From positions 5,132,001 to 5,196,000 of the forward strand of contig NZ_SOBN01000001.1 of assembly GCF_004365705.1 (NCBI RefSeq): a stretch of DNA of 64,000 nt, given 5' to 3'. The notes beneath the pieces were generated by a model. That model was not told the DNA's origin and made no database searches. It saw nothing but the letters and a program-made list of their open reading frames with translations. Both the position numbers and the translations under genes were made by a program. Shown piece after piece: positions 1,914 to 22,531 of the stretch (position 1 is the stretch's first letter; the number at the start of each line of letters is the position of its first letter). The DNA comes from Streptomyces sp. 846.5 (GTDB taxonomy: Bacteria; Actinomycetota; Actinomycetes; Streptomycetales; Streptomycetaceae).

Positions 1914-4217
1914 ATGCCCCGCTTCAGCATCGTAGTACCCCACACCGAGGACGCCACCTACCTGCGTGACGTCCTCGACTCCGTACTGACCCAGGTCTTC
2001 CCGGACCTGGAGCTGATTCTGGTGGGCAGCGCACCCGGCGGCGATGCCGCGGCAATGATTGACGAGTACGCGCAAACAGACTCCCGGGTGATGAGGATCG
2101 AGAAGCCGGGGAACCCCTCGACGGACGGCGATCTCTCCGCCGAGCGCGACCTGGGCGCGGCCCGGGCCGAGGGCGACTACCTGCTGCTGCTGGACAGCGA
2201 TGTGCTGCTGATGCCCGGGGCCCTGGAGGCGCTGGACGACCGTCTGACCGAACTGGGCTCCCCCGAACTGCTGCTGTTCGACCACGAGCGCCGTGACTGG
2301 CTGTCGCGGATCACCCCCAGCCTCGACACCGACCTGCTGGCCGATCTCGAACTGGTCGGCGACGGCGAGTTCGCCACGGCCGCCGCCCCCCAGGCGGTCC
2401 GGGTCACCCCGCTGCCCTGGAACCGGGCCGTGCGCCGGGACTTCTACGTCGAGCACGCCGCAGCCTTCGCCCCCCCGACGGCGCTGCCGGCCCTGGTGCT
2501 GGCCGAGCGGACCCTGCTGGCCGCGCGCAGCGTCGGCGCGCTCGACGCGATCTGCACCCAGCGCCTGCGCCGCCGCACCGTCGGCCGCTGGATGGGGATC
2601 CTCATCAGCGACGGCCTGCTCGCGGTGCAGGGCTACCGGCAGGTGCTGGAGTCGTTCGCCACACCGGAGGGCCGGCCGGCCGGCTCCGAGGGCGAGCAGC
2701 AGGCGCTGGCCTCGGCGCTGTACGACGAGATGTTCCTGGTCGCGCTGGCCACCATGCAGCGCTCCCTGGAGGCGCCCGACGCCGCCCGCCGCAGCTTCCT
2801 GGCCGCAGCGGCCGAGGCGCTCCGGGCGGTCCGCCCGGCCGGCTGGACCCGTCCGGCCGAGGCCGACGGACTGCGTGCCGCCGCCCTGGAGACCGGCTCC
2901 TACCTGCGCTTCCGTACCGTCGAGCGGGCCGGCACCACCCTGGTCAAGAGCCGCAAGCAGCTGCGCCTGCGCCGGCACAACACCGCCCGCAGGGCGATCA
3001 AGGCGATCTACCGCGCCAATCTCCGCCGCCCGGTCGAGAAGGGGCTGGTCGCCTACCAGGCGTACTGGAACCGCCAGATCGCCTGCAACCCCGAGGCGAT
3101 CTACCGCAAGGCCAAGGAGCTGGCCCCCGGCATGCGCGGGGTCTGGGTGCTGAACAAGGAGGCCGCCGCGCTCGCCCCCAAGGGCGTGCGGACCGTCGTC
3201 GCCGGCTCCCGTGCCTACTGGGAGCTGATGGCCAGGGCCGAGTTCCTGGTCACCAACGCCAGTTGGACCGGAGACATCGTCAAGCGCCCCGAGCAGACGT
3301 ACATCCAGACCCACCACGGCACCCCGCTGAAGAAGATGGGCCTGGACCAGCGCGACTACCCCGCGGCCACGATGAACTTCAACCAGATGCTCCAGAGCAT
3401 CGACCAGTGGGACGTCAGCCTCAGCTCCAACCGGCACTCCACCCAGGTCTGGGAGCGGGTCTACCCGAGCAGCTACACCACCCTGGAGAGCGGCTACCCG
3501 CGCAACGACGTCTACCAGCACGCCACCGCCGAGGACGTCGCCCGGATCCGCGCCGACCTGGGCATCGAGCCCGGCCAGAAGGCGATCCTGTACGCGCCCA
3601 CGCACCGGGACTACCGCAAGGGCTTCGTGCCCCCGCTGGACCTGGAGGCGTTCTGCGCCGGCCTGGGCGACGAGTACGTGGTGCTGGTGCGCGCGCACTA
3701 CTTCTACGGCGCCAACAAGCGGCTCCAGCTGCAGACCCGCCGCGGCGTGCTGCGGGACGTCTCCGCCTACCCCTCGGTCGAGGAGCTGGCACTGGCCTCG
3801 GACGCGCTGCTCGGCGACTACTCCTCGGTGATGTTCGACTACGCCAACCTGGACCGGCCGATCGTGGTGCACGCCCCCGACTGGGAGGTCTACAAGGAGT
3901 CCCGCGGGGTCTACATCGACCTGGTCTCCGGCCGTCCCGGGGACACCCCCGGGGTGGTCGCCACCGATGTCAAGGGCCTGATCGAGGCGTTCCGCTCGGG
4001 GGCCTGGGAGGGCGAGCAGTCCGCGAAGCTGCGGGCCGCCTTCCGGGAGCGGTTCTGCCAGTTCGACGACGGCAGGGCGGCCGAGCGGGTGGTCCGCCGG
4101 GTGTTCCTGGGGGAGACAGCCGACATCCCGTTCATCCCGCTGGTCGAGCGCACCCCCGCGCCGCGGCCGTCGGCCGCCCGGTCCGACGTGGACGAGAGCG
4201 CCACGGCGCACGCCTGA
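1914..4217 (+). CDS. GT2 glycosyltransferase / CDP-glycerol glycerophosphotransferase fusion, paralogue 1
   Basis: A two-domain wall-polymer enzyme of 767 residues. Residues 1 to about 220 are a GT2-type domain beginning MPRFSIVVP. Its nucleotide-binding segment is degenerate (LVGSAPGGD where relatives have VDDGSTD), and the second acidic motif is DSDV. Residues about 370-740 match TagF-type CDP-glycerol:poly(glycerophosphate) glycerophosphotransferase, with HHGTPLKK (His468), YAPTHRD, LVRAH and DYSSVMFDY. The C-terminal domain looks intact and should transfer glycerol-phosphate to a wall teichoic-acid-like polymer at the inner membrane face. The paralogues start at the same MPRFS, so ATG 1914 is preferred over ATG 1908. 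It faces paralogue 2 across a strong terminator. Confidence 0.85.
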   Translation: MPRFSIVVPHTEDATYLRDVLDSVLTQVFPDLELILVGSAPGGDAAAMIDEYAQTDSRVMRIEKPGNPSTDGDLSAERDLGAARAEGDYLLLLDSDVLLMPGALEALDDRLTELGSPELLLFDHERRDWLSRITPSLDTDLLADLELVGDGEFATAAAPQAVRVTPLPWNRAVRRDFYVEHAAAFAPPTALPALVLAERTLLAARSVGALDAICTQRLRRRTVGRWMGILISDGLLAVQGYRQVLESFATPEGRPAGSEGEQQALASALYDEMFLVALATMQRSLEAPDAARRSFLAAAAEALRAVRPAGWTRPAEADGLRAAALETGSYLRFRTVERAGTTLVKSRKQLRLRRHNTARRAIKAIYRANLRRPVEKGLVAYQAYWNRQIACNPEAIYRKAKELAPGMRGVWVLNKEAAALAPKGVRTVVAGSRAYWELMARAEFLVTNASWTGDIVKRPEQTYIQTHHGTPLKKMGLDQRDYPAATMNFNQMLQSIDQWDVSLSSNRHSTQVWERVYPSSYTTLESGYPRNDVYQHATAEDVARIRADLGIEPGQKAILYAPTHRDYRKGFVPPLDLEAFCAGLGDEYVVLVRAHYFYGANKRLQLQTRRGVLRDVSAYPSVEELALASDALLGDYSSVMFDYANLDRPIVVHAPDWEVYKESRGVYIDLVSGRPGDTPGVVATDVKGLIEAFRSGAWEGEQSAKLRAAFRERFCQFDDGRAAERVVRRVFLGETADIPFIPLVERTPAPRPSAARSDVDESATAHA

Positions 4218-4296: not shown

Positions 4297-7200
4297 CTAG
4301 CCCTGGTCTTCGAGGAGGGCGTCGACGACGCGGGTGGTGGCGTTGCCGTCGTCCCAGGGGCTGTAGGCCTGTTGGTAGGCGGTGTAGGCGTCGGTGTGGG
4401 GCTTGGTGGCGGCGTCGATGTCCTGGAGGGCGTGGATGAGGTCGGCGGAGGTGCGCAGGATGGGTCCGGGGGCCTGGGTCTGGTAGTCGAAGCTGAAGCC
4501 GCGCAGGTTGTCGCGGTAGTGCTCCAGGTCGTAGTCGAACAGCAGGACCGGTTTGCCGGTGCCGACGAAGTCGGGCAGCAGTGCGGAGTAGTCGGTGACC
4601 AGGACGTCGGCGACCAGGAGCAGGTCCTGGGCGTCGGGGTAGTCGGCGACGTCCCACAGGTAGCCGTCGCCGGCACCGGGGGCGATCTGGCCGATGCGCT
4701 GGTGCGGGCGGATCAGCAGGACCTGGTCGGCGGACAGGGCGGCCCTGGCGGCGTCCAGGTCCAGTTGCAGGTTCAGGCGCAGGATGTTGTCGAAGCCGAG
4801 CTGGTCCTCGCGCCAGGTCGGCGCGTACAGCACCACCGTCTTGCCCTGGGGCAGGCCCAGGTGTTCGCGGATGGCTTGGGCGCGTTTGTCGCGGTCGGGG
4901 GCGTGCAGCTGGTCGGTGCGCGGCAGCCCGGTCTCCAGCACGGTCCCGGTGTAGCGCAGGGCGCGGCGCAGGACGGGGGTGCTGGGCGGGTTGGGGGAGA
5001 GCAGCAGGTTCCACTGGGCTGCGCCCTGGTCCAGGGCGTGGAGTTGGTCGGGGTCGGCGTACCAGTCGTTGTCGAAGTCGTGGCCGATGCGTTTGACGGG
5101 GGTGCCGTGCCAGGTCTGCAGCAGGGTCTGGCCGTCGCGGCGCTGGATCCAGGCGGGCAGGGGGGTGTTGGTGACCAGGTAGCGGCTGGTGGCCAGGGCC
5201 TGGTACCACTCGGGGCTGTGCAGGCGGATCGGGGTGGCGGTGGGGGGGATGTCGGCCTGGAGGTCGTCGATGACCCAGAGGTGGTCCAGGGGGGTGCCGC
5301 GGCGGACGAGTTCGTGGTGGATGGCGCGGGGGGAGTCGGCGTAGGGGCCGCCGTCGTAGCTGTTGTACAGGACGGCTTGGCGCAGGGGTTGGCTGCGGGC
5401 GGCGGGGTAGCTGTCCTCGCGGAGCCGGCGCTGGTGGTAGGGGCCGGCTTCGTGGCCGGTGAGGGAGTCGGCGGCGGTCAGCAGTAGGCAGTCGTACCAG
5501 CGGCGGGCCAGGGTGACGGTCTTGCCGCGGGCCTGGACCTGCTGGGGGACGCCGGTGTGGGCGCGTGGGGCGAGGTGGAGTTTGATCTCGTCGGCTTCGT
5601 GGTCGCCGAGGCGGGCGAGGAGTTCCCATTCGCCGGCGCGCAGGGGCAGTTCGCCGCCGTAGACGTCGTTGGGGTAGGCGGGCAGCTGGGCGTGGAAGGT
5701 GCCGTCGGTGACCTGGACCCGGTGGGTCTGCGGGCGGCGGGTGTGTCGCTTGTGGCGCAGCACCAGGTCGAAGTGGTGGCTGCCGGCGACGGGGTAGCTG
5801 CCCTCCAGCAGGAACGCCGACCGGTCCGGCAGCACCGACACCGCCTCGACCACCGGCTGCACCCGCTGGTCACAGATCTGCAGATACCCCCGCGGCGAGG
5901 AGCGGATCAGTAGTGCCCGGTCCCCAGGCTGGGCCGGTGCGCCATCCTTGACCAGGGGGAACTGCACCGATGACGGGCTGTCAGCCCCCTGGTCCACGAC
6001 CAGGGGAAGTGTGCTGTCGTCGGAGAGAAGCAGCTCGGCGGTCCAGTGGTCGATCTGCCGGGTCCGGGCGCTGGCGCGGATCTCCGCCTCCTCCAGCCGG
6101 ACCTGCTCCAGGGCGGCGGGGTCGATCCGGGTGGTGAAGGGCACCTTGCCGTCGGCCTCGGCGCCCAGCTCGACCGGGTAGAGCAGCTTCCTGCTGCTGC
6201 CGTCCTCGGTGTGCCGGACCTCTAGCCGGACCCCGTCCAGGCCCTTGCGCGACTTGATCGAGCCGCTGAGCTCGATCAGGCCGTCGACGGCCCTGGCCGA
6301 GGAAACCCGGGCCTTGACGGTCTCGACCCGCAGGCCCAGGTGCTGGTCGGAGATCTCCGGGATCAGCCGCACGTCCTGGTTCACCCAGAACGGGGTGGGC
6401 ACCTGGCCGGAGCCGGTCAGCCCCTCCTTGATCCGGGTCCGCCGCGGACGGCCGGCGCCGAACTGCGCCAGGGTCACGCCCCAGCTGCCGTCCTTCCACT
6501 CGCCGCGCTTCTTGAGCCGGTCCGGGTTGACCGTCACCGACCAGCCGGACCAGTCGGCGTGGTGGAACGGCAGATTGGGCTCCCGGGCGGTCACATCGGG
6601 ACGCCGTACGGTGCGGGTGGGCAGCAGCAGGGTCCGCTTGCTCTTTCCGCCCTGGCGCAGCACCAGCGCGCGGACGGAGTCGTAGCGGTGCTCGGCGCCG
6701 AGGTTCTTCTGGAAGGCGTGGCCCTCCAGCTTCAGCGAGCCGTCCTGCCAGGTGATCTCGTCCACGGTGGCGTGCAGGCCGACGGCGGCGACCAGGGTGG
6801 CCACCGCCTCGTCCAGCGGCGGGCTGTCCCTGAGCGCGGGGTAGTCCGCCTTGGGACGCAGCGTGCCGCGGGTCGGGATGGCCCGCGGGTACTCCTTCTC
6901 GAACTCCAGGATCGCCAGGATGTCGGCCATCCGGCGCTTGGCGGTCAGCCAGAACTTGATCCGCAGACCCTCGGCCAGCTTGTTGAGGACCGAGGGCTCG
7001 ATGTCCTCCAGGATCGGGCCGACATGGTCGAGGAACAGCTCGCGGTACTCGTCGTCGGCGATCGGCAGCACCCGGTAGAAGATCAGCATCTCCTCGACCA
7101 GGACGTTGTGGTCGTAGGAGCGCAGGTAGCTGCGGAATTCCGGGTCGGACGCGGACTGGGCCTTGAGGAACTCGCGGACCATGCTGATCGAGGCCATCCG

Positions 7201-7890
7201 GTCGATCAGGCCCTTGGGGTCGGTCCGGTTCTGCGTGATCGACCTGGAGCCGACCTCGCGCATCCGCCACAGGTAGACCGGCTCGGCCAGCACGTCGACG
7301 GACTTGGCCAGGTAGTGCAGCGGCACGCTGACCGGGGCGTCCTCGTAGAGGATGCCCGGGTACTCCAGGGCGTGTTCGTCCCAGAAGCTGCGCCGGTAGA
7401 CCTTGTTCCACGCGGTGCGGTCGGTGACCAGCGCCGGGAACCTGCTGATGTGGGTCTTCAGCTTGGTCGAGGCGAAGGGCGCGCGGTGCACCCAGGAGGG
7501 GTTGGACCCCACGGCCCGGAAGCGCAGCACATTGCCGGCGACGAAGTCGGAGCCGGTCTGCTCCAGCGTCTCGATCATCAGCTGGTACGAGCTCGGCGGG
7601 ACGATGTCGTCGCTGTCCACAAAGGTCAGGAACTCCGCCTCGGGGTCGACCGCCGCAGTCCCGGTGTTGCGGGCCGGCCCGAGGCCCTTGTTCTCCTGCT
7701 GGACCAGGCGGAAGCGGGCGTCGCGTCGCGCGAAGGCCTCGGCGATCTCGGCACTGGAGTCCGTGGAGCCGTCGTCGACCATGACGACCTCGAAGTCGTC
7801 GAAGGTCTGTGCGGCGAGGGACGCCAGGCACTCCTCCAGGTACAGCTCGACGTTGTAGATCGGGACGACCACGGAGAGGCGGGGGGCCAT
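4297..7890 (-). CDS. GT2 glycosyltransferase / CDP-glycerol glycerophosphotransferase fusion, paralogue 2 (long form)
   Basis: A 1197-residue protein. Residues 1 to about 230 are a canonical GT2 domain (SVVVPIYN, VDDGSTD, ENKGLGPARN, DSDD). A long middle region (about 400-800) lacks recognisable enzyme motifs and looks beta-rich. The C-terminal third is a TagF-like glycerophosphotransferase with WHGTPVKR (catalytic-type His928), YAPTWRE, LIRPH and DYSALLPDF. The frame continues 36 codons upstream, but homology starts at ATG 7890. Codon choice changes within the gene: the 3' part (below about 5800) strongly prefers CCC and CGC, while the 5' part uses much CCG and CGG, suggesting a mosaic origin. 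Likely role: adding sugar and glycerol-phosphate units to a wall glycopolymer. Confidence 0.85.
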   Translation of the reverse strand: MAPRLSVVVPIYNVELYLEECLASLAAQTFDDFEVVMVDDGSTDSSAEIAEAFARRDARFRLVQQENKGLGPARNTGTAAVDPEAEFLTFVDSDDIVPPSSYQLMIETLEQTGSDFVAGNVLRFRAVGSNPSWVHRAPFASTKLKTHISRFPALVTDRTAWNKVYRRSFWDEHALEYPGILYEDAPVSVPLHYLAKSVDVLAEPVYLWRMREVGSRSITQNRTDPKGLIDRMASISMVREFLKAQSASDPEFRSYLRSYDHNVLVEEMLIFYRVLPIADDEYRELFLDHVGPILEDIEPSVLNKLAEGLRIKFWLTAKRRMADILAILEFEKEYPRAIPTRGTLRPKADYPALRDSPPLDEAVATLVAAVGLHATVDEITWQDGSLKLEGHAFQKNLGAEHRYDSVRALVLRQGGKSKRTLLLPTRTVRRPDVTAREPNLPFHHADWSGWSVTVNPDRLKKRGEWKDGSWGVTLAQFGAGRPRRTRIKEGLTGSGQVPTPFWVNQDVRLIPEISDQHLGLRVETVKARVSSARAVDGLIELSGSIKSRKGLDGVRLEVRHTEDGSSRKLLYPVELGAEADGKVPFTTRIDPAALEQVRLEEAEIRASARTRQIDHWTAELLLSDDSTLPLVVDQGADSPSSVQFPLVKDGAPAQPGDRALLIRSSPRGYLQICDQRVQPVVEAVSVLPDRSAFLLEGSYPVAGSHHFDLVLRHKRHTRRPQTHRVQVTDGTFHAQLPAYPNDVYGGELPLRAGEWELLARLGDHEADEIKLHLAPRAHTGVPQQVQARGKTVTLARRWYDCLLLTAADSLTGHEAGPYHQRRLREDSYPAARSQPLRQAVLYNSYDGGPYADSPRAIHHELVRRGTPLDHLWVIDDLQADIPPTATPIRLHSPEWYQALATSRYLVTNTPLPAWIQRRDGQTLLQTWHGTPVKRIGHDFDNDWYADPDQLHALDQGAAQWNLLLSPNPPSTPVLRRALRYTGTVLETGLPRTDQLHAPDRDKRAQAIREHLGLPQGKTVVLYAPTWREDQLGFDNILRLNLQLDLDAARAALSADQVLLIRPHQRIGQIAPGAGDGYLWDVADYPDAQDLLLVADVLVTDYSALLPDFVGTGKPVLLFDYDLEHYRDNLRGFSFDYQTQAPGPILRTSADLIHALQDIDAATKPHTDAYTAYQQAYSPWDDGNATTRVVDALLEDQG

Positions 7891-8087: not shown

Positions 8088-10295
8088 ATGCCCCGGTTCA
8101 GCATCATCGTGCCCGCGTACCAGGTCCAGTCCTACCTGGGCGCCTGTCTGGACTCCGTCCTCGAACAGTCCTACCGGGACTTCGAGCTGATCGGCGTGGA
8201 CGACCGCTCGCCGGACGGCAGCGGCGAGATCCTGGACACGTACGCGGCCGCGGACCAGCGGGTCCGGGTGCTGCACCTGCCCGAGAACGTGGGCCTGGGC
8301 CGGGCCAGGAACGCCGGGATCGAGGCGGCCACCGGCGACTACCTGATCTTCCTGGACAGCGACGACACCCTGACCGAGGGATCGCTCCGGGCGATCGCGG
8401 ACCGGCTCGACGCCACCGGCGAGCCCGAGGTGCTGGTGTACGACTACGCCCGCAGCTACTGGGACGAGCGGACCGTGCGCAGCCGCGACGGTGCGGCCGG
8501 GGCGCTGCGGACCGGTTCGGAACGGGCCGCGGTCTTCACCGCCGCCGATCGCGAAGACATCCTCAATCTGCTGATGGTCGCCTGGAACAAGGCCTACCGC
8601 AGGGACTTCGTCGAGCGGAACGGCTTCCGCTTCCCGGCCGGGTACTACGAGGACACCCCCTGGACCTATCCGGTGATGCTGTCGGCGGCCACCATCGCCA
8701 CGCTCGACCGGGTGGTGGTGCACTACCGGCAGCGCCGGCAGGGCGGCAACATCCTGGCCACGGTCAGCCGCAGGCACTTCGACGTCTTCGCCCAGTACGA
8801 CCTGGTGTTCGCCTTCGTCCAGCAGCGCCCCGAGCTGCACCGCTGGCTGCCGCTGCTGCACGCGCGGATGGTCGACCACGTGCGCACCATCGGCACCCAC
8901 CCGGACCGGGTGCCGGCGGAGGCGCGCAAGGAGTTCTTCGAGCTCGCCGCCGAGGCCGAGCGGCGGCACCGGCCGGAGGGCGCTGCCGCCCTGGCGGTGG
9001 GCGGCGACTGGAAGCAGGGGCCGCTCGGCCGGCTGGCCCGGACCGCGGGCCGGACGGTGAACGAGATCCGGCCGGTGACGGCCAAGGCGGTGGCGCAGGG
9101 CCTGCTGACGACCTACCAGGCCGCCCAGCGGCGGCTGCCGCTGAACCCGCAGCTCGCGCTGTTCTCCTCCTACCGGTACCGGCTGCCGGCCTGCAACCCG
9201 GCGGCGATCCAGGCCAAGCTGCAGGAGCTGGCCCCGGAGATCAGGTCGGTCTGGGTGGTCGAGGCGGCGCGCCGCAAGGACGTCCCCGAGGGGCTGACGG
9301 TGGTGTCGCCCGGGTCCCGGGAGTACCGCGAGGCGGCCTCCCGGGCCACCTACTCGGTCAGCAACGTGCCCTTCGCGGACAGCGCGCCCAAGCGCGAGGG
9401 CATGGTCTACCTGCAGACCCACTGCGGCACCCCGGTCAAGCGGATGGGCACCGACCTGCGCGACTACCCGGCGGCCGGCTCCTCGCTGAGCTTCCACGCG
9501 ATGCTGCGGCGGGTCGACACCTGGGACTACAGCCTCAGCGCCAACCACTTCTCCTCGCAGGTCTGGGAGCGGGTCTACCCCTCCGACTACCAGAACCTGG
9601 AGTACGGCTACCCGCGCAACGACGTCTACAGCACGGCCGGCGCCGCCGAGGTGCTGGCCGCCCGCGAGGAGCTCGGCGTCAAGCCGGGGCAGACCGTGCT
9701 GCTGTACGCGCCGACCACGCGTGAGTACCGCGCCAGCTACCGGCCCGGTCTCGACCTGGCCCGGCTGGCCCGCGCGCTGGGGCCGGACCACGTGCTGCTG
9801 AACCGGACCCACTTCTTGGACCAGCGCAGCTTGGACCAGCACACGCCGGTCGACGCTCCCGGCGTCATCGACGTGAGCGGCCACCCCTCGGTGGAGCGGC
9901 TGGCCCTCGCCGCCGACGCGCTGATCACCGACTACTCGTCGCTGATGGTCGACTACGCCAACCTGGACCGGCCGATCATCGTCTTCGCCGACGACTGGGA
10001 GGTCTACCGCCAGACCAGGGGCACCTACCTGGACGTCTTCTCGGGCCGCCCCGGGCAGAGCCCCGGCGCGACCGCGAGCAGCGAGGAGGAGCTGACCGAG
10101 CTGCTCCGCTCGAACGAGTGGCGCTCCGGTGCGAACGCCGTGCTGCGGAGCGCCTTCCGTGCGCGCTTCTGCGCCCTGGACGACGGCCGCGCCGCGGAGC
10201 GCGTGGTCCGCACCGTCTTCCTGGGCGAGACCACCCCGCTGCCGGTGATCCCACTGGCGGAGCGGACCACGGCGCCGAGGCCCGAGGAGCTGTAG
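8088..10295 (+). CDS. GT2 glycosyltransferase / CDP-glycerol glycerophosphotransferase fusion, paralogue 3
   Basis: A 735-residue protein. Its N-terminal GT2 domain is intact (SIIVPAYQ, VDDRSPDGS, ENVGLGRARN, DSDD). The C-terminal TagF-like domain has YAPTTRE, LLNRTH and DYSSLMVDY. The motif that carries the catalytic His in this family reads THCGTPVKR, so the usual His is Cys446 (codon TGC at 9423-9425). The glycosyltransferase half may therefore be active while the glycerophosphotransferase half is altered or inactive. ATG 8088 gives the MPRFS start shared with the short paralogues; the 26 upstream codons in frame have no homology. It converges on the methyltransferase gene with a 21-base gap. 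Confidence 0.85.
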   Translation: MPRFSIIVPAYQVQSYLGACLDSVLEQSYRDFELIGVDDRSPDGSGEILDTYAAADQRVRVLHLPENVGLGRARNAGIEAATGDYLIFLDSDDTLTEGSLRAIADRLDATGEPEVLVYDYARSYWDERTVRSRDGAAGALRTGSERAAVFTAADREDILNLLMVAWNKAYRRDFVERNGFRFPAGYYEDTPWTYPVMLSAATIATLDRVVVHYRQRRQGGNILATVSRRHFDVFAQYDLVFAFVQQRPELHRWLPLLHARMVDHVRTIGTHPDRVPAEARKEFFELAAEAERRHRPEGAAALAVGGDWKQGPLGRLARTAGRTVNEIRPVTAKAVAQGLLTTYQAAQRRLPLNPQLALFSSYRYRLPACNPAAIQAKLQELAPEIRSVWVVEAARRKDVPEGLTVVSPGSREYREAASRATYSVSNVPFADSAPKREGMVYLQTHCGTPVKRMGTDLRDYPAAGSSLSFHAMLRRVDTWDYSLSANHFSSQVWERVYPSDYQNLEYGYPRNDVYSTAGAAEVLAAREELGVKPGQTVLLYAPTTREYRASYRPGLDLARLARALGPDHVLLNRTHFLDQRSLDQHTPVDAPGVIDVSGHPSVERLALAADALITDYSSLMVDYANLDRPIIVFADDWEVYRQTRGTYLDVFSGRPGQSPGATASSEEELTELLRSNEWRSGANAVLRSAFRARFCALDDGRAAERVVRTVFLGETTPLPVIPLAERTTAPRPEEL

Positions 10296-10316: not shown

Positions 10317-11255
10317 TCAGCTGCTGCGCCTCCGGCGCCGGTTCACGGCCCGGACGACCAGTGGCGGGAGCAGGTCCGCGGCCACCCGCCGCAGCCGGGG
10401 CCGGCGCGGCGAGACCGGTGCCGTCTCCTGGGCGGTCCGGACGGTGGGCCGCAGCACCGGCGCGCTGTGGAAGCGGGACGCGGGGAACGCGGGCGGCTCC
10501 CCGTTCCCTCCCAGCCGGACGAAGGTCTCGCTCGCGACCGTCGTTTCGATCGTGTGGCGTCCCGGCCAGGTCCCGACGACGGCGCGCAGCGCGGTGACGG
10601 CCGGCTCCGGGTCGCCCCAGGTGCCGTAGAACTTCTGCGAGGAGAGGCAGATGGGACGGAGGCCGTGCTGGAACACGGCCTCCCAGACGGCGGCGGACAC
10701 CTCGGGGGTGTGCTCGGCCCGGTAGTCGTCGAGGACGATCACCCCGTCCGGCGCCAGGGCCTTCCGGGCGACCTGGATGTCGCCGGCCACATGCTCGTAC
10801 AGGTGCGAGGCGTCCACGTGCACGAAGCGGCAACTGCCCGCCGGGATGCGGCCGTCGGCCAGCACCGAGGTCGGGGCCTGGATGATCTCGGGCAGCCGGT
10901 CGTGGAACGCCAGGTAGTTCTGCTCGAAGTGGACCCTGGTGAGCGTGGAGCGGTAGAACCCGGCCATCTCGGCGCTGTTGGCGTCGTCCACGGCGTCCGA
11001 GTCGAAGAGGTCGCAGACCGTCAGGATCTCGTCCGGGCGCAGGTGGCGGCCCAGCAGGGTCGCGCTCTTGCCCAGGTAGGCGCCCAGCTCCAGGAGGTTG
11101 CCGTGGACCTCCCGCTGGTGGTCGCCGAGGAACCAGTCGAAGAGCAGGCGGTCGTTGGCGAAGAACCAGCCGGGTATGTCGTCGAGCTGTTCCGGGCGGG
11201 AGGGCGTGTTGGAGGACGCAGCGGCGGAGGAGGCGGGGGCGGTGACCGAGGACAC
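10317..11255 (-). CDS. Class I SAM-dependent methyltransferase
   Basis: A 312-residue cytoplasmic methyltransferase of the TylF/Methyltransf_24 type. The SAM-binding glycine loop is seen as ELGAYLGKSA, followed by an acidic VCDLFDSD segment, VDASHLYEHV and VIVLDDY. GTG 11255 is chosen because GGAG at 11264-11267 lies eight bases before it; the frame is open 25 codons further upstream without a ribosome site. It follows paralogue 4 on the same strand by about 100 bases. A role in O-methylating a sugar of the wall polymer is plausible but inferred only from context. Confidence 0.8.
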   Translation of the reverse strand: MSSVTAPASSAAASSNTPSRPEQLDDIPGWFFANDRLLFDWFLGDHQREVHGNLLELGAYLGKSATLLGRHLRPDEILTVCDLFDSDAVDDANSAEMAGFYRSTLTRVHFEQNYLAFHDRLPEIIQAPTSVLADGRIPAGSCRFVHVDASHLYEHVAGDIQVARKALAPDGVIVLDDYRAEHTPEVSAAVWEAVFQHGLRPICLSSQKFYGTWGDPEPAVTALRAVVGTWPGRHTIETTVASETFVRLGGNGEPPAFPASRFHSAPVLRPTVRTAQETAPVSPRRPRLRRVAADLLPPLVVRAVNRRRRRSS

Positions 11256-11263
11256 TCTGAACG

Positions 11264-11267
11264 CTCC
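11264..11267 (-). promoter_or_regulatory. Ribosome binding site deciding the methyltransferase start
   Basis: GGAG on the minus strand lies eight bases upstream of GTG 11255. No comparable site precedes the upstream in-frame start at 11330, so the shorter protein is preferred. Confidence 0.6.
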
Positions 11268-11352
11268 GAGAGGTGGGGGTGGACTACTCGGGGTGGTGCG
11301 GGATCCCTGCCGGGCGACCTTACCCCCCACCCAGGGGAATTGGACAGGTTCT

Positions 11353-13665
11353 TCACGGTCTGCTCACTGAAGGGTCGTAGCATCGGTCGTCCTGCCGGCC
11401 GATCACGGTGCTGCCCTCCTCGGCGAGCAGCCGCAGCGCCTCCTGCGGGGAGGGGGCGTGGGCGCGGTCGGCGAGCGGCAGCGCCGCGGGGACGTCCCGC
11501 CCGTCCAGGAACAGGGTGCGGACCACCCGCTCCGCGGCCAGGCCGTCGTCGTGGCTGCAGAAGCGCTCGCGGAACGCCGCGCGCAGGCCCGCCGAGTGCC
11601 CGCTGTCCCAGGCGCCGGAGCGGAACGCGTGCGCCAGGGTGTCCTCGTCCGCGGTCACCAGCCCGGGGGTCTCGCCGGGGCGGCCGGACAGCAGGTCGAA
11701 GTAGACACCGCGGATCTCCCGGTACACCTCCCAGTCGGGGGCGTGGACGACGATCGGCCGGTCCAGGTTGGCGTAGTCGAAGAGGATCGACGAGTAGTCG
11801 GTCACCAGGGCGTCGGAGGCCAGCATCAGCTCCTCCACGCACGGGTGCTGCGACACGTCCCGCGCCAGCCCGCGGCGCTCCAGGTCGCGCAGCGATGCGT
11901 CCTCGCCGTAGAAGTAGTGCGCGCGGACCAGCAGGGTGCAGCCGTCGCCGAGGGCCCGGCAGAGCCGGGCGAGGTCCAGTTGCGGCCGGAACTCCCGCTG
12001 GTGGTCCCGGTGGGTGGGCGCGTAGAGGATCGCCGTGGTGCCGGCCGGGATCCCCAGCTCCTCCCTGATCCGCAGCACGTCGGTGGCGGTGGCGGTGGCC
12101 AGCACGTCGTTGCGCGGATAGCCGGCCTCCAGGTTCTCGAAGGTGCCGGGGAAGACCCGGTCCCACACCTCGGTGGAGTGCCGGTTCGAGGACAGGCTCA
12201 GGTCCCACTGGCCGACCATGGCCATCAGCCGGTTCCAGTTGACCTTGGCCGAGCAGGCGGGGTGGTCCAGCTGGTCCAGGCCCATCTTCTTCAGCGGAGT
12301 CCCGTGATGGGTCATCAGGAAGCGCTGTCCGGGGCGCTTCGGGTGGGCCAGGCCGAGGCCCGAGTTGGTCACCAGCCAGCCCGCCCTGGTGGCGTACCAC
12401 CAGAACCTGGGGGAGCGCAGCAGCACCTGGTCGGTACCGGGCGGCGCGGTCTCGGCGCCCTTCTCGGTCAGCACCCACACGCCGCGGACGCCGGGGGCGA
12501 GCCGCTGGGCGCAGGCGTGGATCGCGCCGGGGTTGCTGCCGGTCGAGGCCCCCCAGTAGGAGCAGTAGAGCGCCAGGTCGCGGCGGATCGGCAGCATCCC
12601 GCCGATCCGCCGGGCGGCCCTGACCGCGTAGCCGGTGGCCCGCCTGCCGACCCGCTCGCGGCTCTCCCGCAGGCGCTTCCGGGCCCGGTCGAGCAGCTGG
12701 CCGGCCAGGTACGCCGGGCGTGATCCGGTGAGCACGCCGCGGGCCCGCAGCCCGCCGAGCCCCGGCAGCCCGCCCGCCGCCAGCCGCCGCCAGCGGGCGC
12801 AGCTGTCGGCCGCGGCGCGGAAGTAGGCGGCGGTCTCGGAGCGGGAGGCGGTGCCGGGGCGGGCCAGCTCGTCCAGGACGGTGCGGACCATCCGCTCCAG
12901 GACCAGGCGGGCCAGGGCCGGATCGCCCTGGACCCGGTTGAGCAGCTCCTCGAAGTCCTTCAGCGACGCCGGGTCGCAGGGGCGCCCGGCGGCCGGGACC
13001 CGGGGGTCGCGCTGGATCCGGCGCACCAGGCACAGCTCGGGGGTGGTGGCGACGGTGGTCGCGTCCAGCAGTGAGCGGTAGGCGAAGACCAGCTCGGAGT
13101 CGGCGCCGGGGAGCGGTCCCGGGCCGTGCGGGGCGCAGAAGTCGCGGCGCAGCACCCGGTTGGCGCGAAGCGGCGGCAGGTGCAGCAGCGCGGGCCGGGC
13201 GGCGGGACCGCCGGTCGTGGCGCCTGTGGTGCCGCCGCCGTCCGGCTGGGTCGGCAGCACCACGCCCTTCGTCGGCTGCGTGCGGCCCTGCCAGTCGTCG
13301 GTCCGGTGCCCGAACACCAGCACCTGGGGGTCGCCGGCGGCGGTGAGGGCGCGGCCCAGCACCGCCAGGGCCTGCGGGGTGAGCACGTCGTCGGCGGACA
13401 GCAGCAACAGGTACTCGCCCGAGGCCCGGTCCGCGCCGAGGCGCAGGGCGGCGTCCTCGTCGTCGGGCCGACGGGAGGTCAGCATCAGCACCCGGGGGTC
13501 CAGCCGGGTGAACTCGGCCGCGATGGCCGCAGTGTGGTCGGTCGACGCGGCATCCACCACGATGAGCTGGACCTCGCCGAAGGACTGCGAGAGCACGGAC
13601 TCCAGACACGTCCTGAGGTGCCGTTGGGCGTTGCGGGCCGGAACGATGATGCTGAAGCGGGGCAT
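11353..13665 (-). CDS. GT2 glycosyltransferase / CDP-glycerol glycerophosphotransferase fusion, paralogue 4
   Basis: A 770-residue protein starting MPRFSIIVPARN. The GT2 half is atypical: VDAASTDHT replaces VDDGSTD, and the second acidic motif is SADD, not DSDD, so sugar-nucleotide binding may be impaired or changed. The C-terminal TagF-like half is intact, with THHGTPLKK (His454), YAPTHRD, LVRAHYFYG and DYSSILFDYANLDRP. This half closely resembles paralogue 1, suggesting a relatively recent duplication. It is divergent from paralogue 5 across a 243-base regulatory region. Expected role: glycerol-phosphate transfer at the cytoplasmic membrane. Confidence 0.85.
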   Translation of the reverse strand: MPRFSIIVPARNAQRHLRTCLESVLSQSFGEVQLIVVDAASTDHTAAIAAEFTRLDPRVLMLTSRRPDDEDAALRLGADRASGEYLLLLSADDVLTPQALAVLGRALTAAGDPQVLVFGHRTDDWQGRTQPTKGVVLPTQPDGGGTTGATTGGPAARPALLHLPPLRANRVLRRDFCAPHGPGPLPGADSELVFAYRSLLDATTVATTPELCLVRRIQRDPRVPAAGRPCDPASLKDFEELLNRVQGDPALARLVLERMVRTVLDELARPGTASRSETAAYFRAAADSCARWRRLAAGGLPGLGGLRARGVLTGSRPAYLAGQLLDRARKRLRESRERVGRRATGYAVRAARRIGGMLPIRRDLALYCSYWGASTGSNPGAIHACAQRLAPGVRGVWVLTEKGAETAPPGTDQVLLRSPRFWWYATRAGWLVTNSGLGLAHPKRPGQRFLMTHHGTPLKKMGLDQLDHPACSAKVNWNRLMAMVGQWDLSLSSNRHSTEVWDRVFPGTFENLEAGYPRNDVLATATATDVLRIREELGIPAGTTAILYAPTHRDHQREFRPQLDLARLCRALGDGCTLLVRAHYFYGEDASLRDLERRGLARDVSQHPCVEELMLASDALVTDYSSILFDYANLDRPIVVHAPDWEVYREIRGVYFDLLSGRPGETPGLVTADEDTLAHAFRSGAWDSGHSAGLRAAFRERFCSHDDGLAAERVVRTLFLDGRDVPAALPLADRAHAPSPQEALRLLAEEGSTVIGRQDDRCYDPSVSRP

Positions 13666-13908: not shown

Positions 13909-16900
13909 ATGTCACCCCAACTCAGCGTCATCGTCCCCGTCTTCAATGTGCGGGACTACCTGGCGGACTGCCTGGACTCGATCGCCGCACAGACCATGGC
14001 CGACCTGGAGGCCGTGCTGGTGGACGACGGCTCCACGGACGGCAGCACCGCGATCGCGGAGGAGTACGCGGCCGCCGACCCCCGGTTCCGGCTGGTGCGC
14101 AAGGAGAACGGCGGCCTCGGCAGCGCCCGCAACCTGGGCGTCCGCTCGGTCCATCCGGACAGCAGGTACCTGGGCTTCGTCGACAGCGACGACGTCCTTC
14201 CCCGGGACGCGTACCGGTATCTGTACGAGGCGCTGGAGCAGAGCGGCTCCGACCTGGCGACCGGCAATGTGTACCGGCTGCAGGCGGACCGCCGGGTGCA
14301 GAACCACCAGCACGCGCATCTGCGCAGGACGGTGCTGGGCACCCATGTCACCCGGGAGCCGTGGCTGCTCACCGACCGGATCGCCTGCAACAAGCTGTTC
14401 CGCCGGGAGTTCTGGGAGCGGCACCGGCTGGCCTTCCCCGAGGGGGTCCTCTACGAGGACATCTCGCTGACCGTCCCCGCGCACTTCCTGGCGGAGGCCG
14501 TCGACGTGGTGCACCGGCACGTCTACTACTGGCGGATCAGAAGCGGCTCCATCACCCAGCGGGCCGCCGAGGCGCAGGGAGCCCGCGACCGCATCGAGGC
14601 CGTCAACCGCACCAGCAGGTTCCTCGCCGAGCGCTCCCCGGTCCACCAGCGGGCGTTCGAGCAGCAGACCCTCTCCTACGACTTCCGCTTTCTGCTGGAC
14701 GCCTTCCCGCAGGCGGGCCAGGAGTACCGGGAGGCGGTCGTGGCGGGCGCCGCCGCCTTCGCCGAGCGGCTGGAACCGGAGGACTTCGCCGACCTCCCGG
14801 TCGACCTGCGGGCCAAGTGGGAGCTGATCCGTGGCCGGCGTACGGCGGACCTGCTCGACCTGTTGGCGCTGGAGCAGCGCAGCCGCAATGGCTTCGAGGT
14901 CGCCGGAACCGTTCGGCGCCGGGCCGTCTACCGCACCGGCTCCGGCGAGCCGATCGTGCTCCCGGCCCGGACCGCGGCCCTGCGGAGCGACGAACTGCCG
15001 CTGCTGGCCAAGCTGGAGGAGGTGCACTGGTCGCCCGAGGGCCGACTTGAGCTGCACGGCTGCGCGTATGTCGACAACCTCCCGGCCGGCTCGCCGCTCA
15101 CCTCGCTGCGGACCGCCGTACTGACCGGCCCGGACCGGCACCGGACGTTGCTCCGGCTGCGCAGCCGGCCGTCGGTCGCCGCCGGACGGGGCTCCGGGCA
15201 GGAGCTGCACGACCACGCCGGCGCCGGCTTCCTGCTCTCGGTCGACCCGGAGCGGTTCAGGTGCGGCGGCCGTTGGCAGGCCGGCACCTGGACACTGCGG
15301 GTCGCGCTGGGCCGCCCCGGTCTGCTGCGGCACGCCCCGATCCGGCCCGCCGGCGGCAACGTCGACTTCACCCGGGTCCGGCCGCTGGACGCGGACACCC
15401 TGCTGAGGGTCGGTTTCGACAACGGGGCGCTGACACTCAGGGTCGAGGAGATCCAGGCCAGGATCGACGGCCACCGGCTGGTGGACGGCTGTCTGGAGAT
15501 CAGCGGCCGGGTCCGCGACAAGCACCGGCCGGTTCGACTGACGGTCAATCAGAAGGACTCCGAGGCACGGGTGGAGACCCCGGTCGCAGTCGGGCGGGCC
15601 GAGGCCGGGTGGCGGAGCTTCACGGTGGCCGTGCCGCTCGACGCGGTCGCCTCGGTCGCGCCCGTGACCGAGGACGGCCCCCGTGAACTGGCTCCGAGGT
15701 CGGTCGACGGCTGGTGGACCCGGCTGGTCACCGAGGCCGGAGCGCAGCTGGTCGTCACGGCCCTGCCCGAACTGGCCGCCGGCAGCTACCCGCTGCCGCC
15801 TGGACCCGACGGACCGGATCCGCGCCTGGGCGACCAGCTGCAGCTGCTGCCGGGCACCGAGGGCCAGTTGGTGCTGGAGCGGACCCGGCGCCCCACCGCC
15901 GGGACGCTCTCCTGGACGCCGGACGGGCGGCTGGAGATCGCCGGAACGCTGCCGTTGACCGCCGGGCCGGTGCAGCTGGTGCTGCGCCACAGCGGTTTGC
16001 ACGAGGAGGTGACCGTCCCGGTCGAGCACGCGGACGGCCGCTTCACCGCCGCCCTGGACCCGGCCGCCCACCCCGGGCTGCCTGGCGAACTCCCGCTGCG
16101 CGAGGGGCACTGGTACGGCTTCCTGCGCCGGATCGGCGCCGACAGCAGGGACGGCGAGCTGTCGCTGCGGCTCGCCACCGCCGCCCAGGCCGGGCTGCCG
16201 CTGGAGCGCCCCGGTGCGGGACGGCAGTTCGCCGTCATCGCCTGCTACCGCGACATGTTCGTGCTCAGCTCGGGCGCCGCGCCCGGCTTCGAGGCGCAGA
16301 GCCCGTACCGGACCCTGCAGCTGGCCCGGCAGGCCTACCCCGCCGCCCGGTGGCTGCCGCTGCGCGACACCGTGCTCTACAGCAGCTTCGACGGACGGCA
16401 GTACGGCGACGCGCCACGCGCCATCCACGAGGAACTGCTGGGCCGTGGCAGCGAGTTGCGGCACCTGTGGACGGTGGACGACGAGCAGGCGCCGCTGCCG
16501 CCGTCGGCCCGGGCGGTCGCCCTGGGCGGTCCGGAATGGCACCAGGCGCTGGCCACCAGCCGCTATCTGGTCACCAACACCCAGCTCCCGTCCTGGTTCC
16601 GGCGCCGGGAGGGGCAGACCGTGGTGCAGTGCGGCACCGGGGTCCCGGTCAAGCGGACCGGCCTGGCGCTGCGGGGTTCCGTCTACACCGACCAGAGCCG
16701 GCTGGCGGAGCTCTCCGAGCAGTCCCGGCAGTGGAGCCTGCTGCTGGCGCCGAACCGGTCCGGAGCGGCGGCGCTGCGCCGGGCCTGGGACTTCCAGGGC
16801 GAGATCCTGAGCGACTGCTCCCCGCGCACCGACCTGCTGCACGCTGAGGACCGGGACAAGCTCGCCGAGGTGCTGCGGCGCCGGCTCGACCTGCCCGAGG

Positions 16901-17445
16901 GCCGGCGGACCGTGCTGTTCGCGCCGACCTTCCGCGACCACCGGGCGGTGTCCGGAGGGCCGTTGCGCTACGACTTCGCCCCCGGCCTGGACCTGACCTC
17001 GTTCGCCGAGGCCCTCGGCGACGGCTACCGGGTGCTGGTGCGCCGGCATCCCGACACAGTGGCCGCGTTCCCGATCGGCGGAGCGGTCACGGACGTCAGC
17101 GCCCACCCGGACGCCGTCGAACTGCTGCTGCTCGCCGACGTCCTGGTCACCGACTACTCCTCGCTGGCGGTCGACTTCTGCCGGACCGGCCGACCGGTGC
17201 TGTTCTTCACCCCGGACCTGGACCAGTACCGGGACTCCGTCCGCGGCCTGGAGATCGACCTGCCCCGGCACGCACCCGGCCCACTGCTGGAGACTCAGGA
17301 GGGGCTGGTGGAAGCCCTCCTGGACCTGGACGCGGTGGCCGCCGCCCACGCCGAGCGCTATGCGTCCTTCCGGGAGGCCTACTGCGGCGTGCTGGACGCG
17401 GAGGGCGCCCGCCGGGCGGTCGACCGGATGCTGACCCTCGGCTGA
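13909..17445 (+). CDS. GT2 glycosyltransferase / glycerophosphotransferase-like fusion, paralogue 5 (long form)
   Basis: A 1178-residue relative of paralogue 2. Residues 1 to about 230 are a complete GT2 domain (VIVPVFN, VDDGSTD, ENGGLGSARN, DSDD). A long middle region without recognisable motifs follows. The C-terminal TagF-like domain keeps FAPTFRD, LVRRH and DYSSLAVDF, but the catalytic HGTP motif has become QCGTGVPVKR, with Thr910 at the His position. The glycosyltransferase is probably active; the C-terminal domain may be catalytically dead or use another chemistry. ATG 13909 matches the family start. Its last 67 bases overlap the end of the convergent membrane glycosyltransferase gene. 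Confidence 0.83.
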   Translation: MSPQLSVIVPVFNVRDYLADCLDSIAAQTMADLEAVLVDDGSTDGSTAIAEEYAAADPRFRLVRKENGGLGSARNLGVRSVHPDSRYLGFVDSDDVLPRDAYRYLYEALEQSGSDLATGNVYRLQADRRVQNHQHAHLRRTVLGTHVTREPWLLTDRIACNKLFRREFWERHRLAFPEGVLYEDISLTVPAHFLAEAVDVVHRHVYYWRIRSGSITQRAAEAQGARDRIEAVNRTSRFLAERSPVHQRAFEQQTLSYDFRFLLDAFPQAGQEYREAVVAGAAAFAERLEPEDFADLPVDLRAKWELIRGRRTADLLDLLALEQRSRNGFEVAGTVRRRAVYRTGSGEPIVLPARTAALRSDELPLLAKLEEVHWSPEGRLELHGCAYVDNLPAGSPLTSLRTAVLTGPDRHRTLLRLRSRPSVAAGRGSGQELHDHAGAGFLLSVDPERFRCGGRWQAGTWTLRVALGRPGLLRHAPIRPAGGNVDFTRVRPLDADTLLRVGFDNGALTLRVEEIQARIDGHRLVDGCLEISGRVRDKHRPVRLTVNQKDSEARVETPVAVGRAEAGWRSFTVAVPLDAVASVAPVTEDGPRELAPRSVDGWWTRLVTEAGAQLVVTALPELAAGSYPLPPGPDGPDPRLGDQLQLLPGTEGQLVLERTRRPTAGTLSWTPDGRLEIAGTLPLTAGPVQLVLRHSGLHEEVTVPVEHADGRFTAALDPAAHPGLPGELPLREGHWYGFLRRIGADSRDGELSLRLATAAQAGLPLERPGAGRQFAVIACYRDMFVLSSGAAPGFEAQSPYRTLQLARQAYPAARWLPLRDTVLYSSFDGRQYGDAPRAIHEELLGRGSELRHLWTVDDEQAPLPPSARAVALGGPEWHQALATSRYLVTNTQLPSWFRRREGQTVVQCGTGVPVKRTGLALRGSVYTDQSRLAELSEQSRQWSLLLAPNRSGAAALRRAWDFQGEILSDCSPRTDLLHAEDRDKLAEVLRRRLDLPEGRRTVLFAPTFRDHRAVSGGPLRYDFAPGLDLTSFAEALGDGYRVLVRRHPDTVAAFPIGGAVTDVSAHPDAVELLLLADVLVTDYSSLAVDFCRTGRPVLFFTPDLDQYRDSVRGLEIDLPRHAPGPLLETQEGLVEALLDLDAVAAAHAERYASFREAYCGVLDAEGARRAVDRMLTLG

Positions 17446-18665: not shown

Positions 18666-18834
18666 GTCCAGGACCAACGACCCCGCGAGCCGTCCGGCAA
18701 CGTCACCGGGGACCGGACCATCAGTTCGAGTGACGATCTCTGCTCGGCAGAAGCGATGAACCCGCAGCTGGGGAGGGCAAGGATGACAGTAGGACCGGTC
18801 TGTGCCGGGTGTTCCCCATGAGAGTGTCGGTCCC

Positions 18835-20340: not shown

Positions 20341-20380
20341 CGCGGTATCACCGGTTTCAACCGATAGGGGCGGTACGTTC

Positions 20381-21763: not shown

Positions 21764-21775
21764 GGTGTCCCGACC

Positions 21776-22531
21776 ATGAAGAACGCCCTGGGCCAGCCCC
21801 AGTCCCTGCTGCTGCTCGGCGGCTCCTCCGAGATCGGCCTGGCCACCGCCCGCCGGATGGTCCAGGGCCGGACCAAGCGGGTCCACCTCGCCGGGCGCCC
21901 CTCGCCCGCGCTCACCGCGGCCGCCGCCGGACTCACCGCGCTCGGCGCCGAGGTCTCCGTCCACGACTTCGACGCCGCCGCCCTGGACACCCATGAGGCG
22001 GTGCTCGGCAAGGTCTTCGCCGAGGGCGACATCGACACCGTGCTGCTCGCCTTCGGGGTCCTCGGCGACCAGCTGAAGGACGAGCAGGACCCGATGGCCG
22101 CCGCCGCCGTCGCCCAGGTCAACTACCTGGGCGCGGTCACCTCGGCGCTGGTCAGTGCGCAGGCGCTGCGCCGCCAGGGCCATGGCTCGCTGATCGTGCT
22201 GTCCTCGGTCGCGGGGGAGCGGGCCCGCCGGGCCAACTTCATCTACGGCTCCACCAAGGCCGGGCTCGACGCCTTCGCCCAGGGCCTCGGCGACTCGCTG
22301 CAGGGCACCGGCGTGCACGTCATGGTGGTCCGCCCCGGCTTCGTCAGGGGCCGGATGACCGAGGGCCGACCCGAGGCGCCGATGGCGACCACCCCGGAGG
22401 CGGTCGCCGAGGCCATCCTGGTCGGGCTGCAGCGCGGCAGCGAGACGGTGTGGGCGCCGGCCGCGCTACGGGTCGTCATGTCCGGGCTGCGGCACCTGCC
22501 GCGCCCGCTGTTCCGCCGGCTCGCGGTCTGA
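21776..22531 (+). CDS. dprE2: SDR oxidoreductase, decaprenylphosphoryl-2-ketoribose reductase (DprE2)-like
   Basis: 251-residue short-chain dehydrogenase. It has the NAD(P)-binding motif LLLGGSSEIGLATA near residue 10 and the catalytic YGSTK (Tyr-x-x-x-Lys) near residue 158, preceded by a serine-rich strand (VLSSVAGE). In the DprE pathway it reduces the 2-keto intermediate to polyprenyl-phosphoryl-arabinose. AAGGTG precedes ATG 21776. It is tightly linked to the DprE1-like gene, so the two form one enzymatic unit. Confidence 0.84.
   Translation: MKNALGQPQSLLLLGGSSEIGLATARRMVQGRTKRVHLAGRPSPALTAAAAGLTALGAEVSVHDFDAAALDTHEAVLGKVFAEGDIDTVLLAFGVLGDQLKDEQDPMAAAAVAQVNYLGAVTSALVSAQALRRQGHGSLIVLSSVAGERARRANFIYGSTKAGLDAFAQGLGDSLQGTGVHVMVVRPGFVRGRMTEGRPEAPMATTPEAVAEAILVGLQRGSETVWAPAALRVVMSGLRHLPRPLFRRLAV

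Follow-up and report, generated by a model that had tools for sequence, protein, structure and literature searches.

Complementary damage to catalytic motifs in neighbouring fused GT2-TagF paralogues of Streptomyces sp. 846.5

Five fused genes with opposite motif states

In the 64,000-nucleotide stretch of Streptomyces sp. 846.5 analysed here (contig NZ_SOBN01000001.1, positions 5,132,001 to 5,196,000; hereafter the window), five genes within the first 17.4 kb, P1 (+), P2 (-), P3 (+), P4 (-) and P5 (+), encode fused proteins with an N-terminal glycosyltransferase family 2 (GT2, GT-A) domain and a TagF-like domain behind it. P1 and P4 have odd GT2 motifs and an intact TagF site, P3 and P5 show the reverse, and only P2 is whole. 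This pattern, which a preliminary description had pointed out from the window, was confirmed by the motifs, and the counterparts of P1, P3, P4 and P5 were found broken on the same side in two other species; the observation holds, and more widely than could be seen from the window alone. Sequence comparison and the analogy of a published polymerase suggest, with a probability of roughly 60 %, that complementary sites were lost after duplication and that the live halves would act in trans. The five genes are as follows.

1914..4217, +: P1, fused GT2-TagF protein of 767 amino acids (aa), GT2 site broken, TagF site intact; the open reading frame (ORF) may start at 1908
4297..7890, -: P2, long fused protein of 1197 aa, both sites complete
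8088..10295, +: P3, fused protein of 735 aa, GT2 site complete, first TagF His changed to Cys
11353..13665, -: P4, fused protein of 770 aa, GT2 site broken, TagF site intact
13909..17445, +: P5, long fused protein of 1178 aa, GT2 site complete, first TagF His lost

Both domains were matched in all five proteins, with E values of 1e-11 to 2.7e-37 for GT2 (PF00535) and of 7.7e-78 to 3.1e-125 for the TagF-like domain (PF04464). At 735-770 aa, P1, P3 and P4 are the short members of the set; the long ones, P2 and P5 (1178-1197 aa), have an extra middle region, the spacing between the halves being about 600 aa in P2 and about 150 aa in the short proteins.

The rule used to score each protein takes five residues: two TagF histidines and, in the GT2 half, the second Asp in each of VDD and DxD plus the Asp in ED. 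The GT2 site is complete in P2, P3 and P5 and incomplete in P1 and P4, and both catalytic TagF histidines are present in P1, P2 and P4, the first one being absent from P3 and P5. The motifs concerned lie at these positions.

2022..2045, +: P1, VGSAPGGD replacing VDDxSxD
2193..2204, +: P1, DSDV, with DxD kept and residue 4 changed
2472..2498, +: P1, PPTALPALV at the YED position of intact relatives
3312..3326, +: P1, HHGTP, first catalytic TagF His kept
3690..3701, +: P1, RAHY, second TagF His kept
13537..13557, -: P4, VDAASTD, VDD changed to VDA
13387..13398, -: P4, SADD, second Asp of DxD kept
13087..13107, -: P4, GADSELV, ED gone
12295..12309, -: P4, HHGTP, TagF intact
9420..9434, +: P3, HCGTP, first TagF His changed to Cys
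16630..16647, +: P5, CGTGVP, first TagF His lost, GT2 good

All motif strings quoted in the preliminary description were present in P1-P5 at the coordinates read, and the seat of the damage could be refined. The GT2 site of P1 is broken as claimed, but DSDV, quoted as one of its defects, keeps D-x-D, and the real damage is the loss of the VDD acids (VGS) and of the ED pair. Similarly, SADD in P4 keeps the second Asp of DxD, and the stronger damage is VDA together with the missing ED. The "damaged HGTP" ascribed to P3 and P5 holds for the first histidine, while the second is still there (RTHF in P3 and RRHP in P5, compared with RAHY in P1 and P4), each protein having lost one of the two. The GT2 motifs of P3 are good (VDDRSPD, DSDD and YED), and P2 has WHGTP as its TagF motif.

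The TagF columns examined in relatives were HGTP, RxH and DYS. HGTP and RxH align with two histidines of Staphylococcus epidermidis TagF, and the mutant TagF chains 3l7j (H444N) and 3l7m (H548A according to the entry title) differ from the wild-type 3l7i at these two columns. On the GT2 side, the second Asp and DxD are kept in GalT1 (5hea), TarS (5tze) and K4CP where these were aligned to P3, and GalT1 and TarS also keep ED in this alignment. Commonness of the odd motifs in active GT2 enzymes, which the preliminary description had named as a point that would speak against it, holds for DSDV and for replacement of the first Asp of VDD, seen as NDG in solved GalT1 and TagF; for VGS, VDA or an absent ED, no solved GT2 example was found in the five structure alignments examined. 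At columns conserved in 95 % of the intact proteins, with the catalytic motifs left out, P1 and P4 changed at 25 % in the GT2 half versus 0-2 % in the TagF half, and P5 at 0 % in the GT2 half versus 15 % (7/47) in the TagF half.

Conservation in sister species and direction of change

A similar-locus search with P1 returned two loci only, in the sister species Streptacidiphilus jeojiense (genome G005) and Streptacidiphilus carbonis (genome G001). The window belongs to a Streptacidiphilus-like genome: P1 is 87 % identical to its counterpart in S. jeojiense NRRL B-24555 (767 residues) and 83 % identical to that in S. carbonis NBRC 100919 (758 residues). In both species the P1 and P4 counterparts are GT2-broken and TagF-intact (the P1 state being read in loci L008 and L009), and the P5 counterpart has CGTGVP. 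The P3 counterpart has HCGTP in S. jeojiense and HRGTP in S. carbonis, where the second TagF His is gone as well. The P2 counterparts are truncated by contig ends in both sister species.

In a tree of 74 rows, the P3 clade (support 100/99) holds 12 rows, namely three broken proteins and nine intact ones from other genomes of the genus, which are short and have both sites complete. Because the nine intact orthologues form one clade with the three P3 proteins, the TagF loss in P3 is placed as derived on this phylogeny. P1 and P4 form one clade (100/97) next to seven short paralogues, of which five are intact and two belong to an "altered GT2" class (g~T) that was defined post hoc, after inspection of the data.

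It is very improbable that the copies are merely dying genes or sequence errors. Such decay would fit the frameshifted near-copy of P2 on contig C2 of the same genome and what is left of a long-type gene in the P3-P4 interval of S. carbonis (G001:C125), but the frames discussed here are open, the same side is broken in three genomes, and omega (the ratio of nonsynonymous to synonymous substitution rates) is low on the live halves of P1 and P5.

Joint motif states across relatives

A search of the bacterial family with P3 gave a match in 236 of 297 genomes, and stretches were taken from part of them, best matches first. After merging of duplicates, 251 distinct GT2-TagF fusions with both halves remained, lying in 119 of the 160 sources (the window plus 159 loci). 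We dropped 33 ORFs whose matching TagF was short or had no in-frame GT2 ahead of it and, from an extra set, 16 near-complete TagF matches without a GT2 match; some of the dropped rows lie at stretch ends and some are frameshifted (G007, G013).

Among the 251 proteins, 189 were complete, 36 lacked a TagF histidine, 26 lacked a GT2 acid and none lacked both, where 3.7 were expected. The first histidine was gone in all 36 TagF-dead proteins and the second in 4. The extra set of 34 further proteins, mostly from a class-wide search, comprised 14 with both sites, 7 TagF-dead, 12 GT2-dead (several of these gapped at motif columns, which makes their state less sure) and 1 double loss. In the combined set of 285, both sites were complete in 203 proteins, a TagF histidine was missing from 43, a GT2 acid from 38 and both from 1; double loss was thus seen in 1/285 versus 6.0 expected (Fisher p 0.015, kinship ignored). 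On the FastTree phylogeny of the 251 proteins, TagF state has to change 8 times and GT2 state 10 times, so that few independent events carry this statistic. An earlier rule, which had scored GT2 as dead when the first Asp of VDD was changed (160 both, 55 GT2-broken, 35 TagF-broken, 1 double), was replaced because NDG occurs in solved GT2 domains.

One clade of 929-946 aa proteins (L147, L134, L158, L150, L155 and L136) carries TWHGSAYK in TagF and nothing recognisable as GT2 motifs (VLADGDA etc.), and is read from these sequences as an older GT2 loss. The same stretches also carry long proteins with both sites complete.

Evolutionary rates of the two halves

We compared the protein distances of the two halves in disjoint pairs of like state, once with all columns and once with the motif columns and three neighbours on either side removed. 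The ratio of GT2 to TagF distance was 0.88 in intact proteins (74 pairs). It rose to 1.70 in GT2-dead proteins (10 pairs; p 0.0004 versus intact, 0.0017 without motif columns) and 1.38 in GT2-altered ones (13 pairs; p 0.0005 and 0.024), and fell to 0.69 in TagF-dead proteins (17 pairs; p 0.010 and 0.0072). Overall, motif state predicts which half evolves faster.

In the three-species set, omega of P1 was 0.54-0.84 in the GT2 half versus 0.18-0.27 in the TagF half, that of P5 was 0.14-0.16 versus 0.23-0.29, and an intact single gene gave 0.28-0.42 versus 0.32-0.40. The prediction is fitted well by P1, in direction by P5, weakly by P4 and not clearly by P3.

A coupled gene pair in another genus and other neighbour patterns

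A corresponding split of motif states was found in g9, a genus that is probably Streptomyces, represented by 22 loci from the first set. In 22/22 of these, a GT2-altered, TagF-live gene stands directly upstream of a GT2-live, TagF-dead gene on the same strand, with a gap of 7-14 nt. The upstream gene has VxDxPxx-like, FLDGDD and HFTD-like GT2 motifs and an intact TagF site (21 altered and 1 dead by rule), and the downstream gene has a complete GT2 site and THQGTP or THRGTP in TagF. Five of the 22 loci hold a third short gene that also lacks a TagF His, and there no short TagF-live gene other than the altered one is left in the stretch read. Between genomes of g9, nonsynonymous divergence (dN) of TagF was higher in the TagF-dead gene in 212/231 pairs. 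A joining of the P1/P4 clade with the altered g9 clade into one old type was considered and set aside; it appeared as a loose FastTree join (support 85) and is not in the careful 74-row tree.

It is distinctly unlikely that the odd motifs still work, with a different donor or mechanism such as a catalytic Cys in HCGTP or a GT2 half using a non-UDP donor. This reading would agree with the preservation of the remaining 95 %-conserved TagF columns in P3, with omega below 1 for all halves measured, with the changed first Asp in solved proteins and with the altered g9 GT2 halves, which mostly keep their core acids. However, the P3 position reads C, C and R in three orthologues, the R one having lost the second His too; the solved mutants 3l7j (H444N) and 3l7m (H548A in its entry title) hit the same two columns; matching alanine mutants of the polymerase Cps1B made no polymer (PMC5974469); and P1 and P4 have lost several GT2 residues at once, their losses at conserved non-motif columns falling mainly in the GT2 half.

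Across the loci, every TagF-dead gene counted (36/36) had a TagF-live neighbour in the same stretch, compared with a mean of 28.4 on shuffling (0/2000 shuffles as high). In G017 and G019, the next gene after a GT2-dead, TagF-live one encodes a protein that has an intact GT2 (SDDHSTD, DSDD, YED) and no TagF match; this protein has a weak TarS-linker match, below the cut-off.

Fold and relation to known systems

A model of P3 built from a seven-sequence alignment reached a mean predicted local distance difference test (pLDDT) score of 75.6; a single-sequence prediction of P1 (mean pLDDT 37.6) was discarded. The C half of the P3 model matched TagF 3l7k (Z 39.2; root mean square deviation, rmsd, 2.8 over 376), Cps3D 8qoy (Z 34.6) and TarL 8va1 (Z 30.3), and the N half matched TarS (Z 28.2, rmsd 2.8, 288 aligned, model residues 3-312), GalT1 (Z 27.8), TarP (Z 27.3) and RmlT (Z 25.7). 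Teichoic acid enzymes make up several of these matches to the predicted fold; similarity of fold is not evidence of function. The likeness to the wall teichoic acid enzymes TarS, TarP and RmlT lies in the modelled fold of the P3 N half, with the difference that GT2 is here fused to TagF and that P1 and P4 lack acids kept by TarS. In sequence, the C halves match S. epidermidis TagF (3l7i-3l7m) with E 1.7e-50 for P1 and 9.8e-59 for P3, and the GT2 half of P3 matches the N end of that protein in addition (E 8.6e-14); unlike it, P3 and P5 have no equivalent of H444.

Among the closest known systems are the GT-A/TagF-like capsule polymerases Cps1B, Ccs2 and Cps12B (Litschko et al. 2018, PMC5974469), with an N-terminal GT-A domain, DxD, a TagF-like half and two histidines in one chain. 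According to this paper, which also names five active-site motifs of TagF, the Cps1B mutants D133A/D135A, H587A and H717A made no polymer singly, and a GT-A mutant mixed with a TagF mutant restored the wild-type polymer level. A fused GT-A/TagF polymerase is already known, and what differs here is the complementary loss in natural neighbouring paralogues of Gram-positive bacteria; with Cps1B, as there described, both activities sit in a single intact protein, and the mutants were made in the laboratory. P1/P4 and P3/P5 look like natural counterparts of its single-domain mutants.

The same source states that the Cps1B product consists of glucosamine and galactose without glycerol and that glycerol polymers come from the TagF/GT-B proteins Cps3D and Cps7D, so the phosphate donor may differ from that of P1-P5. 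In Streptomyces coelicolor, polydiglycosylphosphate is described as a minor wall polymer beside teichulosonic acid (PMC7831098). "Polyol-phosphate" transferase, as P1 and P4 had been called, is accordingly not fixed, and "polyol" is the weakest word of the earlier interpretation. P1-P5 score 141 to 235 bits against the NCBIfam TarF equivalog NF041712, under its curated cut-off of 550. Since no gene for CDP-glycerol synthesis or teichoic acid export was recognised by Pfam among 20 ORFs of the window (10317-44056), the substrate is not fixable from this neighbourhood.

A further parallel is the heparan sulfate polymerase EXT1-EXT2, two paralogues with two transferase domains each, in whose heterodimer the GlcA-transferase of EXT2 is reported as a pseudo-domain (PMC9675754). 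By analogy it shows that a dead transferase half can persist within a working complex. That polymer is unrelated and the loss one-sided (both add GlcNAc), whereas the loss seen here is reciprocal, and the one link between partners is the 7-14 nt gene coupling in g9.

By the title of a 2011 report from Kleinschnitz and co-workers, SCO2997 is said to be a TagF homologue of S. coelicolor, a member of the same family of bacteria, with a role in sporulation. The passages on teichoic acid in papers about sigma-E, tagO and CglA of S. coelicolor name none of the P1-P5-type genes. Nor did we find literature naming TagF-like proteins together with Streptomyces, or any on complementary loss, in what were mostly titles and abstract openings, and prior notice in Kleinschnitz 2011 or Sigle 2016 is possible.

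A proposed division of labour among the paralogues

In the mechanism that we propose, a two-domain GT-A/TagF-like polymerase would have duplicated within its locus, with a GT2 half for the sugar and a TagF half for a unit that carries phosphate. This unit is most likely a polyol phosphate, for example glycerol phosphate donated by CDP-glycerol, a sugar phosphate being possible. Opposite catalytic sites would then have been lost in different copies: P1 and P4, catalytically dead in GT2, would now act as phosphotransferases, P3 and P5, catalytically dead in TagF, as sugar transferases, and P2 would keep both activities. The live halves would work in trans on one growing chain, like the Cps1B single-domain mutants in the test tube, and the dead halves may stay as docking parts. 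Such a division of labour, already proposed in the preliminary description, is plausible because the single-domain mutants of Cps1B restore each other in trans. It is the best-supported reading, given the conserved losses, the derived loss in P3, the rarity of double loss, the rates of the halves, the recurrence and the trans complementation of Cps1B. Two rate differences that it predicts, in the TagF half of P3 and in the GT2 halves of the g9 pair, were not seen.

Several observations weigh against it. In the three-species set, omega of P3 is 0.40-0.45 in GT2 versus 0.38-0.52 in TagF, the latter not being clearly relaxed, and the gap in P4 is small (0.33-0.38 versus 0.25-0.31). At the 95 %-conserved non-motif columns P3 changed at 0 % in both halves, while the "complete" P2 changed at 0 % in GT2 but at 9 % in TagF. 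In g9, GT2 dN was higher in the altered gene than in its live partner in just 121/231 genome pairs, the median GT2 omega was alike for the two (0.427 and 0.426), and 21/22 altered GT2 halves keep the core acids, which makes "dead" less sure. L190, the one double loss counted above, breaks both sites by rule. The loci were chosen mostly by likeness to P3 and many come from related genomes, so the fractions are biased. Finally, P2 is intact, nothing in the window needs the split, and P2 may do the whole job by itself.

A rival explanation is plain redundancy, in which each copy kept the one activity that happened to be needed, each serving another polymer or another step. The dead halves would then drift, P1/P4 and P3/P5 would not cooperate, and P2 alone would make the two-part polymer. 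We regard it as somewhat unlikely. The complete sites of P2 and the near-neutral GT2 half of P1 (omega 0.54-0.84) speak for it, as do the 20 of 49 multi-gene loci with a GT2-dead or GT2-altered gene and no TagF-dead one. TagF loss also occurs beside complete neighbours in L157 and L159, where both TagF histidines are lost next to three complete proteins with no GT2-dead partner. These two are, however, the only exceptions among 28 multi-gene loci with a TagF-dead gene, and a GT2-dead or GT2-altered gene is present in 26/28 such loci versus 20/49 others (p 7e-6, tree ignored). The tight g9 pair (22/22, 7-14 nt, one inherited arrangement rather than 22 events) and the 5/22 g9 loci without any fully intact short protein in the stretch read also argue against redundancy. 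A dead TagF half is C-terminal and could be removed by a stop, yet it is full length in 36/36 proteins counted, under a filter that required a near-complete TagF, and GT2 ORFs without TagF away from stretch ends number just 3, one of them in the poor assembly G007.

If the division of labour is true, it would be a natural version of the published laboratory trans-complementation, in more than one lineage, and it offers a direct test of whether paralogues can share out the work of a fused polymerase. The bacterial family includes antibiotic producers, and its wall polymers are poorly understood at the gene level; the pairs would be on offer for in vitro synthesis of defined wall polymers. Annotation names such as "bifunctional glycosyltransferase/CDP-glycerol glycerophosphotransferase" would, by motif, be misleading for 82/285 proteins examined. 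More tentatively, the sequences would allow an obligate team to have arisen repeatedly, in which one paralogue is the live phosphotransferase and its neighbour the live sugar transferase, the dead halves serving in docking or chain handling and keeping the team together, with separate origins in the g9 pair, in P1/P4 with P3/P5 and, as a third, in G017/G019. The repeat unit would then be built by two proteins in alternation, and the pair that is made could change the wall polymer.

Other copies and neighbouring genes

The same genome has two further TagF places (C1:3492281 and C2:797282). A near-copy of P2 on the other contig (G000:C2:794649-798229, L040) carries a frameshift near the start of its TagF half. 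Compared with P2 in 200-nt bins, its DNA is 99.5 % identical at the 5' end, 74-98 % over 800-2000 and 97-100 % over the last 1.6 kb, patchy as after gene conversion, to judge from the sequences. About 48 kb before the window, G000:C1:5082714-5083772 is 61 % identical to P2 residues 1-356 and has one internal TGA; no TagF place was reported nearby, and it has counterparts at 62 % in both sister species.

The interval between P3 and P4 differs between the species. S. jeojiense has a long-type TagF gene there that is open (G005:C41:2713-5091, L013), S. carbonis has a broken remnant of one (G001:C125:4528-6503, L010), no GT2 being found in either, and in the window its place is taken by a methyltransferase-like gene.

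10317..11330, -: methyltransferase-like gene (PF13578, Pfam), within the locus between P3 and P4

Beyond the five genes, a GT2-methyltransferase fusion at 18802-20340 stands ahead of a FAD-binding/D-arabinono-lactone-oxidase-like protein that adjoins a short-chain dehydrogenase (20300-22531), two genes that we take to be reminiscent of a DprE1/DprE2-like pair.

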